64,000 bases of DNA, from positions 882,501 through 946,500 of the forward strand of contig NC_015318.1 of NCBI RefSeq assembly GCF_000194135.1, given 5' to 3'. This stretch comes from Hippea maritima DSM 10411 (GTDB taxonomy: Bacteria; Campylobacterota_A; Desulfurellia; Desulfurellales; Hippeaceae). The position numbers and the translations under genes were made by a program. Within the stretch, counting starts at the first letter, position 1, and every line of letters starts with the position of its first letter. Shown one piece after another: positions 21,247 to 30,056 of this stretch. Below the pieces are notes generated by a model, which had not been told where the DNA came from, ran no database searches, and saw nothing but the letters and a program-made list of their open reading frames with translations.

Positions 21247-21266
21247 ATTATCCCTCATTCCGCACC
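21247..21266 (+). repeat. Left terminal inverted repeat, IS1634-like element
   Basis: Pairs with the right end at 24507-24526 with three mismatches in 20. The last codons and stop of the transposase lie inside this repeat. Confidence 0.75.
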
Positions 21267-22462
21267 TCTTTCTCCGTTTATACCATAAAATCCCATATAA
21301 TTACTACCCAATAGCTCCAATATCAGCCTATGCTTGTTTTCCAACCCAACAATCTGCTCTTGCCCATTAAGTAAGAGTAGATGTATAGCAAAGAAGTTCT
21401 CAAACACCCATCTTGCAGTGGGATTCTGAATGGGTTTGCCAAGTTGATTGGGAAAGGATTTGTTTTGATTTTTAAGCTCACTTCTTATTCTGTATTCCAA
21501 GGCAGAATAGACAAGCAAAGAGAGTGTCATTATCATAAGCATTGCTTCAATGCGTTTTGGGTTCTTTAGAAACATGGCATCGCTTAAAAACTCTGGTGAT
21601 TTTAAGAACCTAAAGCCCCTTTCTATTCTCTGTTGAGATTTATACTCATCAAGCAGTTCCTTGGCAGACAGTGTCATATCATTGGTTGCAAGGATAAAAA
21701 GGCCACTCTTTTGGTTCTGTTTTTGTTTTAGGTATTCTTCATTTGGCTTGGTCTCTATAATCCAGTAGTATTCATAGTGGTCTGGTTTAGCATTTGGTTT
21801 TGGTCGTCCTCTTGTTTTGTATTTGGGCTTTGATATGAGTTTAGCCTCTGATATCATTATGCATTCTAACTTCTTTGTTTTTTCTTCAAATGCTTTTCTT
21901 GCATCAGCTTCACAGAAAAATGCTCTCTTTTGTAATTTCTCAATGAGTTTTGTTTCCTGTTTTTCTTTTTCTTGATACTCTTTCTTTATCGTTTTGTCCC
22001 CTCTTGATTTAGCATAACTGCTTTTGTATAAAACCCACTGTTGTTTCATTCCTTCATAATCTACTGTGTACTGGATAGCCTGATAGTTCTCATCAAGCTG
22101 AATAAATTCCTCTTCATTGTGGTTTTTGAGTATCTCTTTTGCCTGTTTTAGTTTCGATGGAACCCTTGAGATGAAAAGCATGTTGTTTTTCTTAAACTCT
22201 TCCATTGTTTTAGAACTAAAGAGGGCTGCATCGGCTATCACCTTTGTCTTTGTATTATTAGCATTCTTTAAAGAGTTAATATGCTCCTTTACTATATTGG
22301 CAAATGCCTGTGTATCTATTTTATTACCATCTGCAGGCTTCATCCATATGGGAATGCCTGCTTTGTGTTCTACTATAAGATTTAAAACCACCTGATTGAG
22401 CTCTGGATGGTGGTCTCTGCTGTATCCCTGGGTGATAAAGACTGGGGTTGGCTCATACTCTT

Positions 22463-22570
22463 CTTCTTTTCCTCCTTTTCCCCATTTTCCTTCACTGTTA
22501 TTTCCCTTTTCTTCTTTTCCATTTCTTTCTTTTACTTTTCCTTTTTCTTTTTCTTTTTCTTCTTTCGTCT
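22463..22570 (+). repeat. Polypyrimidine low-complexity tract inside transposase
   Basis: Roughly 110 bases that are almost all C/T on the plus strand, built from CTTTTCC-like and CTTTTT-like units. In the transposase frame on the other strand it encodes a Lys/Glu/Gly-rich linker. Confidence 0.7.
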
Positions 22571-22760
22571 TTTGGTTTGGATACTTACCGTCAAGATGAA
22601 AGCTTGTGCTGTCTAAGTGTATGGTAGAGGGTGTAAGGTTCAGTATTTTGAGTGCCCTGCTTGCTATCTTTTCATACAGTTCACTTACGCCGTATTCAAA
22701 GAGCTTATCTAATGTTCTACCAAGTGCATCATCGTTGAACCAAGAGAAGTCAACATCCCT

Positions 22761-22769
22761 TCCGAATAA
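22761..22769. repeat. Target-site duplication (left copy) of the IS256-like element
   Basis: TCCGAATAA, identical to 24147-24155. Nine bases fits the 8-9 bp duplications of IS256-family elements. Confidence 0.85.
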
Positions 22770-24146
22770 GGGACTTAAAATATTTTTGTGTCTCCCCCAC
22801 AAACCTACTAAAATGGAGTGGGGTTTAATGAACTGTTCTAATGAACTCTGAAATTAGGCTAAGTATGGAGGAGCTTTAAGAGATGAACAGAAAGATGCTT
22901 AAGGAGATAATCTCAAACATGGATATGGATGTAGTAAAGGAGTTGGATGAATACGGAAAGAATAAACTGGCCACCCTAATGGAAGGACTACTTATTGAGA
23001 TAATGGGTAAGGAAAGATACGAGTACTTACTTGAGAACCCAGAAGACAAAGGCAATGGAACCTACAAAAGGAGCCTAAACACAGGCCTTGGTAAACTGAA
23101 TTTGGATGTCCCAAGAACAAGGAGCGGAAACTTCCGCTCTCATCTTCTCCCTCCCAAATATCAAAGGTATGATGAAAGCTTTGAGGATTTAATCTTCTCC
23201 TTCCTAATCAATGGAGACTCAAAACAGGAAATCGTGCACAAGATGAAATTGAGAGGACTGGATTTTAGTGAAAAAGCATACGATGAGATATTTGAATACA
23301 TAAAGACACAGATGCTTGAATTTAAATCCAAAGAACTTCAGGAAAACTACTATTTTCTATACATATACGCCTATCACTGTATGGTAAAGGATGAAAAGGA
23401 TAAAAGGGTAAAGAGAGCTGTCGTTTACACTGTTGTAGGGATAGACACAAATGCTCAAAAAACACTCCTTGGATATTACTCATTCTTTGGTAGTGAGAAC
23501 AGATCCACCTGGATGGAAGTATTCCAGGATTTAATCAACAGGGGAATGAAAAGGGTCTTAATGTTCATCTGTGATGATTTCAACGGAATCTCAGAGGCAA
23601 TAAGAGCCTTCTTTCCTTACTCGGATATTCAGAAATGCACAGTTCATGCATCAAGAAACGTATACAAGCATATGAAAAAGGAGGATGCCTCATATGTGAA
23701 CAAAAAGCTCAAGGAGATTAAATACTCCTGTGATACCTTTGAAAAAGGGATAGAGATTTTCAAAACAGAGATAATTGACAGATTCAAAGACCAATACAAG
23801 ACCTACACCAAATATTTAGACTCAAGAAAAGAAGAACTCCTTGCCTTCTTAAAGTACCCTGAGGTAATAAGAAAGTACATCAATTCAACAAACACTGTTG
23901 AATCTGTACATTCATCCTTTGAAAAACAAAGGCTAAAGAAAGGAGGGTTCTTCCAGTCCATGGATATCCTAAATGTTGCCCTTTTCATTGCAACAGATAA
24001 ATTACACAAAACCTGGAATGTTAATCCTCTGATTAAGGCTAAAAGATATGAACTGAATCAGATGTTTGTTGCTAAGTTTGGGAAGGGAGTTGAAGAGTGA
24101 GGAGGGATTTGGTATGATGAGAGAGACACAAAAATTAGGGGATGTC
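22770..24146 (+). mobile_element. IS256-like (Mutator-type) insertion sequence
   Basis: A 1,377-bp element flanked by 9-bp direct repeats and carrying one transposase gene. The two ends share the inward-reading core TTTTTGTGTCTC, offset 12-13 bases from the tips; the outermost bases match poorly. Inserted in the opposite orientation to the host IS1634-like transposase gene. Confidence 0.85.
22883..24100 (+). CDS. IS256-family transposase, first catalytic Asp apparently replaced
   Basis: 405 residues, full length for the Mutator/IS256 family, with ATG after a GGAGGAG site. The second Asp (FICDDFNGI) and the Glu (NSTNTVESVHSSFEKQRLKK) of the DDE triad are visible, as is the CTVHASRNV region. 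Where the family has Asp in the first strand (Asp-Ala-x-Tyr-x-Lys-Val), this protein reads LYIYAYHCMVK, so Tyr162 (TAC) stands in place of Asp (GAC/GAT). If the alignment is right the enzyme is catalytically dead through one base change. Confidence 0.88.
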   Translation: MNRKMLKEIISNMDMDVVKELDEYGKNKLATLMEGLLIEIMGKERYEYLLENPEDKGNGTYKRSLNTGLGKLNLDVPRTRSGNFRSHLLPPKYQRYDESFEDLIFSFLINGDSKQEIVHKMKLRGLDFSEKAYDEIFEYIKTQMLEFKSKELQENYYFLYIYAYHCMVKDEKDKRVKRAVVYTVVGIDTNAQKTLLGYYSFFGSENRSTWMEVFQDLINRGMKRVLMFICDDFNGISEAIRAFFPYSDIQKCTVHASRNVYKHMKKEDASYVNKKLKEIKYSCDTFEKGIEIFKTEIIDRFKDQYKTYTKYLDSRKEELLAFLKYPEVIRKYINSTNTVESVHSSFEKQRLKKGGFFQSMDILNVALFIATDKLHKTWNVNPLIKAKRYELNQMFVAKFGKGVEE

Positions 24147-25857: not shown

Positions 25858-27843
25858 TCACCTCCCATACGCAAGATTTATATTTGTGAGCCTGACATTG
25901 ATGGCTTGAGTTAGGTGTGTATCATTCTTGATTTCTCTTGTTTTGCTTGACTCAAAACGCTCTGCAGCTGCTTCAAGGATCATGTTGAGCATCTCGCCGT
26001 ATGAGATACCCGCAATCTTAGCCATCTTTGCAAGATGACCATCCCAGCACCAACCAGGATTTGGGTTTACCTCAAGTAGTTTGGGCTTAGACTCACTGTC
26101 AAGCCTCCAGTCAAACCTGCAATAGTCGTTTACATTTAGCCTTTCCCACAGTTTTAGCGAGCTTTCCACTATAATCCTTTCTGTTTCCTCATCCAGTTGA
26201 GCTAACCTGGATGTGTTGTTCCAGTAAGGGGAACCTGGCAACCACTTAGCTTCATATCCGCAGATCTTTGGTAGGTCATCTGGTAGTTTGGAGTAGTCCT
26301 CTTCAATTATAGGTAAGATTTTATAATTTCCCGATATATTGCCGATTATGCCTATGGTTAGATCGCTACCCGTTAAAAATTCTTCAATTAATACGGGTTT
26401 ATCATGACCAAACTGCTCTTTGATCTCAGATAAGACCTCAATAAGCTCATCCATTGTATAAACTACGCTCTTCTTTGTTATACCAAAACTCGAATCGCCG
26501 AAATTTGGTTTAACGATCGCAGGAAAATTAAATGGAAGCTCTAAAACGGTCTTATCAGGCGTTACAAGTATGCCTTTAGGAACGGGGATTCCCATCTCTT
26601 TGGCTACACCCCTGATTAAGGATTTATCATAGCAGTAAGCCAAGCACTGCGGATTTGAACCTGTGTAAGGTATGTTAAGCATCTCAAGTAGGGCGGGTAT
26701 GTACAACTCCTTTGTTGGCTCGTTGTTAAAGCCCTCATCACACAGGTTAAAAACAAAGTCTATCTTTGGTTTAAGTTTTATCAGATCGCTTATCAGGGTA
26801 TCGTGATTGTTAACATAGATAAACCTGTAATTTTTTAGTTCGTTCAACGCCTTTTTTAGCTCATCGATTGTGTAGAAGTCATCCTCATCAAAGATGCCGT
26901 TGGGCTTCATGTTGTCCGGTTTGTTTGGGTCTCCCATAACAACAGCAACGGTTTTTAATGAAGCATCTTTGACCTTTGTAAATGTCCACTGTTTTTTGGT
27001 AAGGGCTGTAACTATTATTCTGTGTCCCATCATGCCAAGATCTTGGTTGCGTTTCGAACTTACGGATAGTGTTGAATGGAATTCCACATCATCAAAGCCT
27101 GATTTTTTCAGAAGCTCTTGCAATTTTTCTTTGCTGTAAAGCCTAACAGAGTAAAACTGATCAGCCATGATACCTTTTTCTTTATGTGCAATAATCTCCC
27201 TTGTAATTATTCGCTTGCCATCTGTTGAGAGACTCCTTTCCCTGCACACAAAAAATCTATTGTCCACCCATTCCCAACTTCTATTTTGCAGGTTTGATTT
27301 CAAATACTCACCACCAACAACATCCAACAAAACCTTGCCCCATGGCTTTAGAACCCTCAAAACCTCTTTTAAAACTTTTAAATCCTCATCTTCGGACTCA
27401 AAGTATCCGAAGCTATTACCCAATATCAAAACTGCGTCGAATGTGTCCGTTTTGTAGGGTAATTTTCTTGCATCGCCCTCTCTGAATTTGATCCCCAATG
27501 CACGCTTTTCGCTTTCCTTTCTTGCCTTTTGTATGAGATACCTTGACCTGTCAAGTCCTTCAACATTCAAAAAGCCCCTGCTTGCAAGCTCTATACTGTG
27601 TCTGCCTTGCCCACAACACAGATCCAAAACCTTATCCTCAGGTTTGATACCCAAAGCTTTTACAACCAGATCAACCTCGCTTTTTGTGATCTCTGAGTCC
27701 TCTACGACATCACCATCGCTTATAAGATACAGAGGGTTGAACAGATCCTTCCACCAGTCGGGTTTAACGAAACTTTCGAAATCCTCAACAGGTCCAAAAC
27801 TTTTGGGCTTCACTTTGAGCTTTGAGCCCTTTCTGCTTTTCAT
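25858..27843 (-). CDS. Fusion of SAM methyltransferase and D-Ala-D-Ala-ligase-like ATP-grasp enzyme
   Basis: 661 residues with two enzymes in one chain. Residues ~55-270 are a class I methyltransferase: motif I VLDLCCGQGRHSIELASRG, post-I GLDRS, motif IV AVLILGNSFGYF. Residues ~300-640 are an ATP-grasp ligase of the D-Ala-D-Ala ligase branch: VVMGDPNKP at the domain start, IPYTGSNPQCLAYCYDKSL, PAIVKPNFGDSSFGI, and the metal site CRFDWRLDSES ... LLEVNPNPGW. The last differs from the EINxxPG of true Ddl, so the product is probably not the cell-wall dipeptide. A small-molecule or peptide tailoring role is inferred. No other biosynthetic gene adjoins it. Confidence 0.85.
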   Translation of the reverse strand: MKSRKGSKLKVKPKSFGPVEDFESFVKPDWWKDLFNPLYLISDGDVVEDSEITKSEVDLVVKALGIKPEDKVLDLCCGQGRHSIELASRGFLNVEGLDRSRYLIQKARKESEKRALGIKFREGDARKLPYKTDTFDAVLILGNSFGYFESEDEDLKVLKEVLRVLKPWGKVLLDVVGGEYLKSNLQNRSWEWVDNRFFVCRERSLSTDGKRIITREIIAHKEKGIMADQFYSVRLYSKEKLQELLKKSGFDDVEFHSTLSVSSKRNQDLGMMGHRIIVTALTKKQWTFTKVKDASLKTVAVVMGDPNKPDNMKPNGIFDEDDFYTIDELKKALNELKNYRFIYVNNHDTLISDLIKLKPKIDFVFNLCDEGFNNEPTKELYIPALLEMLNIPYTGSNPQCLAYCYDKSLIRGVAKEMGIPVPKGILVTPDKTVLELPFNFPAIVKPNFGDSSFGITKKSVVYTMDELIEVLSEIKEQFGHDKPVLIEEFLTGSDLTIGIIGNISGNYKILPIIEEDYSKLPDDLPKICGYEAKWLPGSPYWNNTSRLAQLDEETERIIVESSLKLWERLNVNDYCRFDWRLDSESKPKLLEVNPNPGWCWDGHLAKMAKIAGISYGEMLNMILEAAAERFESSKTREIKNDTHLTQAINVRLTNINLAYGR

Positions 27844-27935
27844 GTGGGTCTAACAACCTCCTAAATCATAGGATAATTTGACGCTTTCTATACTCCTTTT
27901 TTTGGAAAAATCAAGAGATTTGATATCTAAGAAAT

Positions 27936-27989: not shown

Positions 27990-28526
27990 TTAACCTGACA
28001 TGACGAAATGTTTAAAATAGCAATCCAGTTCATCAAGTGGCAGGTAAACCAGATCATTAAAATCCAATTCTGCAAAGAAAAATACATTGTAATCGTAATC
28101 CAGATAGGATAGGTCCATGTAATAATCTATAATCTTTTTTAAATTCTTTGAATGTCTCCTAAACCACAGAAAGTATATGCGCCTGTTTTGTGGTATTGCA
28201 TCGACATTCTTATACTCTGTGTTAAGCATATCCAAAAGCTTAAGAAAGTTATCGTTAACCTTTATATCCAGATCAAGATACAAACCACCAAAATGATAAA
28301 GCAGCAGGAATCTAATTACATCAGACTGAAATCTATAGTGAAATCCTTTGAATTTTGACAGATCATAATTAAACTCTTTTAAAAATTTATTTATTTGGCT
28401 TGTCCTGTATAGTCTGTATGAGGGTATCTTTTCAAAGATCCTTTTATTATGCTCTATGAAGACCTCATACTTTTTGGGGATCTCATCCCCATCCGAATAC
28501 CAGATCTGAAAAACATTGGGATACAT
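27990..28526 (-). CDS. Small DXD-containing sugar glycosyltransferase
   Basis: 178 residues from the ATG that follows GGAGG (four codons inside the longest frame). The start FQIWYSDGDEIPKKY and the core RFQSDVIRFLLLYHFGGLYLDLDI with its Asp-x-Asp motif identify the Gly_transf_sug (capsular polysaccharide synthesis/OCH1-like) family using nucleotide-sugar donors. It is a little shorter than usual, with no clear membrane segment. The acceptor is unknown; no other surface-polysaccharide genes are next to it. Confidence 0.8.
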   Translation of the reverse strand: MYPNVFQIWYSDGDEIPKKYEVFIEHNKRIFEKIPSYRLYRTSQINKFLKEFNYDLSKFKGFHYRFQSDVIRFLLLYHFGGLYLDLDIKVNDNFLKLLDMLNTEYKNVDAIPQNRRIYFLWFRRHSKNLKKIIDYYMDLSYLDYDYNVFFFAELDFNDLVYLPLDELDCYFKHFVMSG

Positions 28527-28595
28527 CTTAACCTCCATCTATTTTATACCCAAAAAACTTTGATTTAACCAGCAGTTTTTTGTAAATTTTGAGCC

Positions 28596-30056
28596 ATGAA
28601 ACTTACGGTAAAAATTAAAGACCAAATAAAGCAAATTCAATTAAACAAAGGCGATAACCTTCTGAAAATACTGCATTCAAACGGCATATTCATAAACGCA
28701 TACTGCGGCGGCAAGGGTATATGCAAAAAATGCATCGTTAGATTCTTGGAAAACACCCCAGAGCCTTTAAAGATAGAAAAGGAAGCATTAGCTGATAAAA
28801 TAGAGGAAGGCTATAGGCTTGCATGCCTGCACAACATAGAAAAGGACGCAACGGTTGAGATAGAGGCATTAAAGCCCATATTTTCAGACTTTTTAGCCAA
28901 TGTGTGCTGCGATGATGATAAAACACACATAGCTATAGACATAGGCACAACAACCATAGCTGCAGCTATGGTTGAGAACAAAAAGATAACAAATAGTATA
29001 AGCTTACTAAACCCACAGATAGCCTTTGGCGGCGATGTAATAAGCAGAATTGCATCATCTAACGAGGGAAACTTTAACACCTTAAGCTCCATTTTAAAGG
29101 ACAGCATAAATGATATTATAAGTTCACTAAAAAAACCATCGTCAATGGTAATTTGCGCAAACCCAACGATGCTTTCCTTTTTTTTAGGGCTTAACCCAAA
29201 ATCCATAGGTGAATACCCATACACACCACCGTTTAAAGGAAGCCTTACAACACAATTCAGTGATATTGATATCTATATACCACCTGTTATTGGGGCATTT
29301 GTGGGTTCTGATATAACATCGGCCTTGAGCCTTTTGCCAGAAAATGAAGACTTTTTATTTATTGATATCGGCACAAACTGCGAATTTATCTTAAAAATCA
29401 AAGACAATTATTTCTCATCCAGCGTTCCTGCAGGCCCTGCACTTGAGGGTACAAATATAGATTATGGAAGTATTGCTCAAAACGGTGCAATATATAAAGT
29501 AAGTTTTGAAAATGGTATAAAAGTTTACACCATAAACAACAAAAAACCTACAGGTATTACAGGCTCAGGCTTAATTAGTGTTATAGCCCTTTTGCGCAAA
29601 TTTGGAATAATAGACAAAACCGGCAGACTCGTAGAGCCATGGGAAGCAGAAGCACCCTTTAGCATTATAAACCGCATAAAAGGCAAAGGATTCCTATTAA
29701 CAGATGATATATACCTAACTCAGAACTCTATCAGAAATTTTCAGCTTGTTAAGGCATCTTTGAACGCAGGTTTGGAGTTGCTCCTAAAAAAGATAGGTCA
29801 AAAATTACCCAACAAAATATTTATCGGCGGAGGTTTCTCAAAAAGCTTAAGCAGAGACGAAATAATCAACTCTGGATTGTTGTCTTTTGAGGGTGAATTT
29901 GTTATGCTACAGAACAGTTCTTTGGCAGGTGGCTTAAGGTTATTTTGCTTAAAAGAAAGGGAGAAAGTGGAAAGGTTAAGTAAAAAAATAAAATACATAG
30001 AAATAGCAAACGAAGCCGACTTTGAGAGGTTATATATAAAGAAAATGGACTTCTAA
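28596..30056 (+). CDS. RACo-like corrinoid protein reductive activator (2Fe-2S + DUF4445 ASKHA ATPase)
   Basis: 486 residues. The N-terminal ~85 form a plant-type [2Fe-2S] ferredoxin domain with Cys37-x5-Cys43-x2-Cys46 and Cys77. The remainder is a DUF4445 ASKHA domain: AIDIGTTTIAAAMV, the second phosphate loop FIDIGTNCEF, and the adenosine-loop region KIFIGGGFSKSL. RACo/RamA proteins use ATP to reduce inactive cob(II)alamin to cob(I)alamin on methyl-transferring corrinoid proteins. No acetyl-CoA-pathway corrinoid genes adjoin it. The likeliest partner in view is the MetH about 25 kb away, which lacks its own reactivation domain. Confidence 0.88.
   Translation: MKLTVKIKDQIKQIQLNKGDNLLKILHSNGIFINAYCGGKGICKKCIVRFLENTPEPLKIEKEALADKIEEGYRLACLHNIEKDATVEIEALKPIFSDFLANVCCDDDKTHIAIDIGTTTIAAAMVENKKITNSISLLNPQIAFGGDVISRIASSNEGNFNTLSSILKDSINDIISSLKKPSSMVICANPTMLSFFLGLNPKSIGEYPYTPPFKGSLTTQFSDIDIYIPPVIGAFVGSDITSALSLLPENEDFLFIDIGTNCEFILKIKDNYFSSSVPAGPALEGTNIDYGSIAQNGAIYKVSFENGIKVYTINNKKPTGITGSGLISVIALLRKFGIIDKTGRLVEPWEAEAPFSIINRIKGKGFLLTDDIYLTQNSIRNFQLVKASLNAGLELLLKKIGQKLPNKIFIGGGFSKSLSRDEIINSGLLSFEGEFVMLQNSSLAGGLRLFCLKEREKVERLSKKIKYIEIANEADFERLYIKKMDF

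Follow-up and report, generated by a model that had tools for sequence, protein, structure and literature searches.

The 64,000-nucleotide stretch that we analysed (the window; contig NC_015318.1, positions 882,501 to 946,500) comes from the single-contig, 1,694,430-base genome of Hippea maritima. It encodes a protein in which a methyltransferase is joined to a ligase resembling D-alanine-D-alanine ligase (Ddl), raising the question of what a single chain with both activities would make. The preliminary description of this gene had placed both domains in one 661-residue chain, and the ORF, the Pfam matches, the structural models and the orthologs bear this out. In window coordinates, the gene and its parts are as follows.

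25858..27843, minus strand: whole gene of the methyltransferase/Ddl-like ATP-grasp fusion, 661 aa (intact ORF; orthologs cover both domains; AF2 model)
26989..27759, minus strand: class I SAM-dependent methyltransferase domain with cap, about residues 29-285 (Pfam; domain model; PDB structural matches)
27604..27627, minus strand: SAM-binding motif I, LDLCCGQG, residues 73-80 (sequence reading)
26959..26988, minus strand: short linker, residues 286-295 (domain borders from models)
25933..26958, minus strand: ATP-grasp ligase domain with complete Ddl fold, about residues 296-637 (structure comparison)
26053..26073, minus strand: metal-binding motif EVNPNPG, residues 591-597 (sequence and alignment)
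27857..27862, minus strand: candidate ribosome-binding site AGGAGG, 13 nt 5′ of the ATG (sequence reading)

The fusion is read in a single unbroken frame that opens with an ATG and runs for 661 codons to its stop, and another in-frame stop is present three codons 5′ of the ATG. Pfam places Methyltransf_25 at residues 72-169 (1.3e-20) and Dala_Dala_lig_C at residues 416-624 (1.4e-24). The AlphaFold2 model of the full fusion, computed with a 72-row alignment, has a mean pLDDT of 86.1 and a pTM of 0.71, and the methyltransferase domain modelled alone yields a pLDDT of 87.4 and a pTM of 0.86. Structural matches to residues 28-285 have Z scores of 20.2-24.1 (50 listed), while residues 295-640 match whole Ddl-type structures at Z 25.8-29.5 (50 matches listed), including 1ehi (Z 29.5 over 314 residues) and 2dln (28.5 over 291; VIA-align). 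On these matches, each half has a complete enzyme fold. The 72 rows comprise the window protein and 71 of the best 80 loci from the genome scan described below, five having been dropped because their matched part contains stops (L089, L094, L105, L123, L132) and four omitted as near-duplicates or longer matches (L073, L083, L110, L125). Across all 72 rows the ligase residues K445, E487, K533, R576, D578, E591 and N593 are invariant, and by alignment we take these to serve in ATP and metal binding; P596 and G597 of the EVNPNPG motif are likewise invariant. In the methyltransferase domain, D74, C77, G78 and G80 of motif I do not vary in a 48-row alignment. The linker region (reference positions 282-300) is 18-21 residues long in 72 of 72 rows and is less conserved than either domain. 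Divergence in one half goes with divergence in the other (r 0.69 across 2556 pairs, which are non-independent), as expected if the halves travel together. Both domains are thus present, complete, conserved and inherited together.

Two genes joined by a sequencing error, a possibility that the preliminary description had allowed for, are ruled out by orthologs with the same joined frame and by the constant linker length. A second genome of the genus (G005) carries the same joined frame at 88% identity, and in a third (G003), where two contig ends each hold a piece of the gene, the larger piece (129-661) still crosses the junction. Beyond the genus, the joined frame is found in 24 genomes at 49-64% identity, two of these copies (G366, G206) being cut by contig ends. 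Two of the 24 matches (G165, G258) were listed with one internal stop; in G165 the stop falls within the last few aligned positions, and G258 shows no stop up to query residue 631.

The preliminary description had also called for a search for the same domain pair, and we found it in 27 of 386 genomes, spanning 21 families, with two copies cut at contig ends and one split over two contigs. These 386 genomes were chosen by the search tool and are a sample that gives no estimate of abundance, and several assemblies are incomplete, making single absences weak evidence. Within the genus Hippea, 3 of 9 genomes carry the fusion, some of the assemblies being incomplete. Two further genomes hold partial matches, namely a methyltransferase-only ortholog at 56% identity (G149) and a 76-residue piece at 61% identity (G096). 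When species-representative genomes were scanned with an alignment of 15 rows, at least 545 relatives were confirmed, the best 80 of which cover most of the query at 59-87% identity. By hand count, 26 of these best 80 have archaeal titles, including Jordarchaeia, Lokiarchaeota, Methanophagales, Aigarchaeota and Methanosarcinaceae; the best 80 favour close and complete copies, and their titles are nearly all those of metagenome bins, in which contamination is possible. Wolframiiraptor, Geocrenenecus, Methanococcoides and Nitrosotalea are counted here as archaea, as are members of the Asgard group. The Hippea protein is 61-65% identical to copies on contigs titled Jordarchaeum, Freyarchaeota or Lokiarchaeota. 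On two Lokiarchaeota contigs (L107, L130) the gene directly after the fusion is 74% identical between them, which argues against chance binning for those two contigs.

A tree of the methyltransferase domain (24 rows, midpoint root; the window protein and 12 chosen fused loci, with NmbA represented by residues 15-233 and the L146 methyltransferase absent) places the 13 fused rows and G149 in one clade (99/97). Archaeal rows are scattered within this clade, and a nine-row fork (95/93) mixes bacteria and archaea. This scatter and the mixed fork make gene transfer of the fusion likely. Among 586 matching plasmid records, none had one place covering 80% of the query. We compared 25 carriers (G003 and G005 being excluded as members of the same genus) with 54 controls, hand-picked at roughly even steps from genomes unmatched in the 386-genome search. 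COX1 scored over its cut-off in 7 of 25 carriers and 27 of 54 controls, a suggestive difference (p 0.09) on which we rejected a restriction of the fusion to organisms lacking heme-copper oxidase.

Mapping of genome context, which had likewise been proposed at the outset, identified no conserved partner gene. We found no conserved neighbour of the fusion in 97 non-redundant loci (ORFs ≥70 aa), 86 of which have called ORFs on both sides of it. The commonest neighbour cluster, ABC-ATPase-like by eye, occurs in 15 of the 97 loci, and no neighbour family is found at one and the same adjacent place in more than 4 loci. An operon partner that would name the substrate was therefore rejected. In the three Hippea genomes the fusion has a gene for a small secreted-looking protein on one side and a glycosyltransferase-like gene on the other, the latter followed by a RACo-like gene, and the fusion is 79-88% conserved versus 60-70% for these neighbours. 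In the window the glycosyltransferase-like gene encodes a 182-aa Gly_transf_sug protein (27990-28538) and is retained in both other Hippea-group genomes with the fusion. The RACo-like corrinoid-activation protein (28596-30056) is encoded on the strand opposite to the fusion, and all 9 genomes of the genus have it. Close to the fusion, at 21255-24100, are two adjacent transposase genes, one of the DDE type (minus strand) and one of the Mutator type (plus strand).

With both active sites conserved and no neighbour gene conserved, the fusion enzyme looks self-contained, and the lack of any conserved neighbour family suggests that it probably works alone on common metabolites. Our best explanation, for which we would put the chance just short of even, is a bifunctional, self-contained enzyme that combines ATP-dependent ligation of two small metabolites with N-methylation to yield an N-methylated dipeptide-like compound. 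The ATP-grasp domain would use ATP to phosphorylate a carboxylate on one substrate, giving an acyl phosphate, and would then join the activated carboxylate to the amine of a second substrate, as Ddl and amino-acid ligases do. The methyltransferase domain would add a methyl group to a nitrogen of the substrate or the product, which would leave an N-methylated dipeptide or a similar amide as the final product. The parts of this scheme differ in strength: carboxylate-amine ligation by the ATP-grasp domain is very probable, action of both steps on one molecule is probable, and nitrogen is slightly favoured as the methyl acceptor. The substrates would come from general metabolism, as no partner genes are conserved. 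Ligation and methylation of one amino-acid-like substrate, as originally suggested, therefore agrees best with the evidence, with the substrates themselves still putative.

The nitrogen assignment rests on the relatives of the methyltransferase. Among the solved relatives of METHYLTRANSFERASE, the best sequence match is NmbA (9ri2, 8.5e-26), which also matches in structure (Z 22.0); the top structural matches, 3d2l (Z 24.1) and 1wzn (Z 23.7), are uncharacterised by title. The 50 structural matches listed include 24, several of them repeated, that are amine N-methyltransferases by their title or known function, among them NmbA, CypM, TylM1, CalS10, KedS8, DesVI, CcbJ, GSMT, GNMT and a phosphoethanolamine enzyme. 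Other listed matches are five C-methyltransferase entries (SeMT, SgMT, PsmD), RebM and the S-methyltransferase TmtA. Because the matches include C-, S- and uncharacterised methyltransferases, the acceptor atom does not follow from the fold.

One special case of the N-methylated dipeptide reading is that the enzyme makes a new low-molecular-weight thiol or a dipeptide that acts as a buffer, such as an anserine-like N-methylated cysteinyl or histidinyl dipeptide. Such a product is suggested by NmbA, the best solved relative of the methyltransferase, which methylates the cysteine nitrogen of bacillithiol (PMC12719100), and by anserine, whose synthesis takes an ATP-grasp ligase and an N-methyltransferase (PMC3660329). 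NmbA has the class I fold with cap and shares the SFGYFE and ER-x-LS stretches with the fusion; it is only about 32% identical to the fusion methyltransferase, and it falls outside the 18-row clade of fused and sister rows (100/99 in the 24-row tree). We did not find the BshC family in G000 or in 21 of the 27 carriers, and we found it in 6 carriers, the comparison genomes being a non-random set made up mostly of those with partial matches. Bacillithiol itself was rejected on this basis as a general substrate. As nothing singles out cysteine or histidine either, we consider this special case unlikely.

Methyltransferases close to the fused domain also occur by themselves. Unfused methyltransferases in DUF885 operons (L144, L145, L147) are 39-42% identical to the fused domain and, together with L148, form its sister group (98/92). 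Near a DUF885-cluster gene and the unfused methyltransferase, we observed a protein of 462-504 aa as called (L145:4982-6415, L146:1269-2783, L147:4473-5861; 62-63% identical) with a stretch, LVLKPERGYSG, that is ATP-grasp-like by eye. At our thresholds, neither Pfam (L145 and L147 members) nor PDB nor NCBIfam yielded a match to it. Possibly this protein is an unrecognised ligase, in which case this methyltransferase type would have been paired with a ligase twice, and we regard it as a lead only. The methyltransferase-only ortholog of G149 (L061:1501-2400) is followed by a gene that is uvrA-like by eye, with no ligase part found near it in the 11 kb fetched, and its existence implies that the methyl step may be useful alone.

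A quite unlikely reading is that the fusion modifies a protein or a ribosomal peptide, with the ATP-grasp domain adding an amino acid to the target or cross-linking it and the methyltransferase capping it. Some RiPP loci pair ATP-grasps with methyltransferases (PMC8939145), and the peptide N-terminal methyltransferase CypM is a close structural match. However, the 97 loci contain no conserved precursor gene among ORFs of ≥70 aa, and the 49-66% identity between distant lineages would be more in keeping with a small substrate that is universal than with a protein target that co-evolves. Decidedly unlikely, in our judgement, is cryptic methylation, in which a carboxylate methyl ester serves as a protecting or directing group while the ATP-grasp domain ligates the other end. 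The cystargolide pathway provides a precedent, with a carboxyl methyltransferase, CysG, and an ATP-grasp ligase, CysD (PMC11427300). However, the best sequence match of the fused domain is an N-methyltransferase, as are the 24 listed structural matches counted above, and neither an esterase nor any other gene is conserved beside the fusion in the 97 loci.

The remaining alternative, an ordinary D-Ala-D-Ala ligase that carries a methyltransferase by chance, depends on how far the ligase half departs from Ddl. The fusion ligase shares with Ddl (PF07478, TIGR01205) the complete fold and the ATP/metal machinery. The preliminary description had considered EVNPNPG a departure from the Ddl metal site, which does not hold, as the motif fits E-[VI]-N-x-x-P-G; the Hippea genome's own Ddl has EINTIPG and two Ddl proteins of other genomes have EVNTIPG. 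The differences lie elsewhere: S-x-E-x-E-[IV]-S is missing, K-Y is replaced by K-W and T-S-L-L by D-G-H-L, and the methyltransferase is additional. W534 and G602 of the fusion align with Tyr216 and Ser281 of E. coli Ddl, which we take to be D-alanine recognition residues of DdlB. Near the expected S-x-E-x-E-[IV]-S site, whose N-terminal Glu presumably corresponds to E. coli Ddl Glu15, D310, D321 and D322 are invariant in an alignment that is gapped there. The fusion scores 119.1 bits against a cut-off of 245.65 for TIGR01205 and 126 against 243 for NF002378, and it is below the cut-off of all 25 NCBIfam models listed (of 105 matched). The genome's own Ddl, which lies between genes that we take from their sequences to be murB-like and ftsQ-like, exceeds both cut-offs at 277.8 (TIGR01205) and 325.6 (NF002378).

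Judged by family score and substrate positions, the fusion ligase is different from Ddl, supporting the earlier suggestion that the enzyme is something other than an ordinary Ddl. Despite the Ddl fold, with Z up to 29.5, an ordinary Ddl is therefore highly improbable and was rejected on the cut-offs, the separate true Ddl in the same genome and the replaced D-Ala positions; the 26 archaeal titles among the best 80 of at least 545 relatives also stand against it, D-Ala-D-Ala peptidoglycan being, as a rule, not known from archaea. Annotations of this fusion family that may read 'D-alanine-D-alanine ligase' or 'methyltransferase' would need correction. The separate Ddl, the conserved bacterial and archaeal family and the absence of a conserved partner gene had all been missed in the preliminary description.

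Unfused relatives of the ligase provide some indication of its substrates. The nearest unfused ATP-grasps in the 386-genome search are 29-39% identical to the fusion, and the best six match it at 158-172 bits. L004, a locus whose protein exceeds the Ddl cut-offs, reaches 90 bits, so that the fusion is closer to these unfused relatives than to Ddl. Twelve unfused-ligase loci were fetched, with crude gene calling (ORFs ≥70 aa) and neighbour clusters annotated from one member each. Eight of these (L152-L157, L162, L163) have a lysine-2,3-aminomutase-like, GNAT or RimK-like neighbour (in 7, 5 and 3 loci, respectively), and in the other four (L158-L161) none of the three was found. Tandem ATP-grasp pairs occur in 6 of the 12 loci (L152-L157). 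The second member of some pairs has YEAKW, EVNPNP and aligned insertions in common with the fusion; the pair relatives differ in being unfused, in their identity of 27-39% and in reading 'PNPD' then 'DAG' where the fusion has 'PNPGWCWDGH'. Rhizobial plasmid relatives of the ligase lie near MFS transporters, and a Thioflavicoccus relative is accompanied by a KamA family gene and by genes of the diaminopropionate type. These contexts suggest that the substrates of the wider ligase family are unusual amino acids, the aminomutase neighbours hinting at amino-acid or beta-amino-acid substrates, and the eight loci may represent a pathway to beta-amino-acid peptides. Aminomutase-like proteins were found in 9 of 25 fusion carriers versus 12 of 54 controls (p 0.27), an insignificant difference on which we rejected a dependence of the fusion on lysine-2,3-aminomutase. 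In two of the loci (L160:6501-10179, L161:6418-10039) the Ddl-like ATP-grasp adjoins a protein with sub-cut-off matches to B12-binding and MutE, and an octopine/nopaline-type dehydrogenase is also adjacent (by Pfam on L160 and by cluster on L161).

Returning to the N-methylated dipeptide-like product, the high identity between Hippea and archaea, together with the lack of partner genes and the retention of both active sites, makes it likely that the enzyme yields one specific compound useful in many lineages. We tentatively extend this, with distinctly less than even confidence, to an undescribed N-methylated dipeptide-like metabolite made by a stand-alone enzyme and common to many bacteria and archaea, mostly known from metagenomes and including Asgard lineages. 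In that case the gene would spread between the domains by transfer because a single gene suffices to make the metabolite.

Full-text literature searches, which covered a minority of subscription papers, returned no published account of the fusion. Known systems offer analogues of its parts. PnaC and PnaB are two ATP-grasp ligases documented to make a dipeptide and a tripeptide (PMC11867202). An analogue in how it works is the anserine route, in which carnosine synthase ATPGD1 and carnosine N-methyltransferase are the two enzymes (PMC3660329). These are separate vertebrate enzymes, whereas the fusion, which we liken to them by function, has both domains in one chain. Each half of the fusion is of a known kind, and the interest lies in the combination, its spread over two domains of life and its product.
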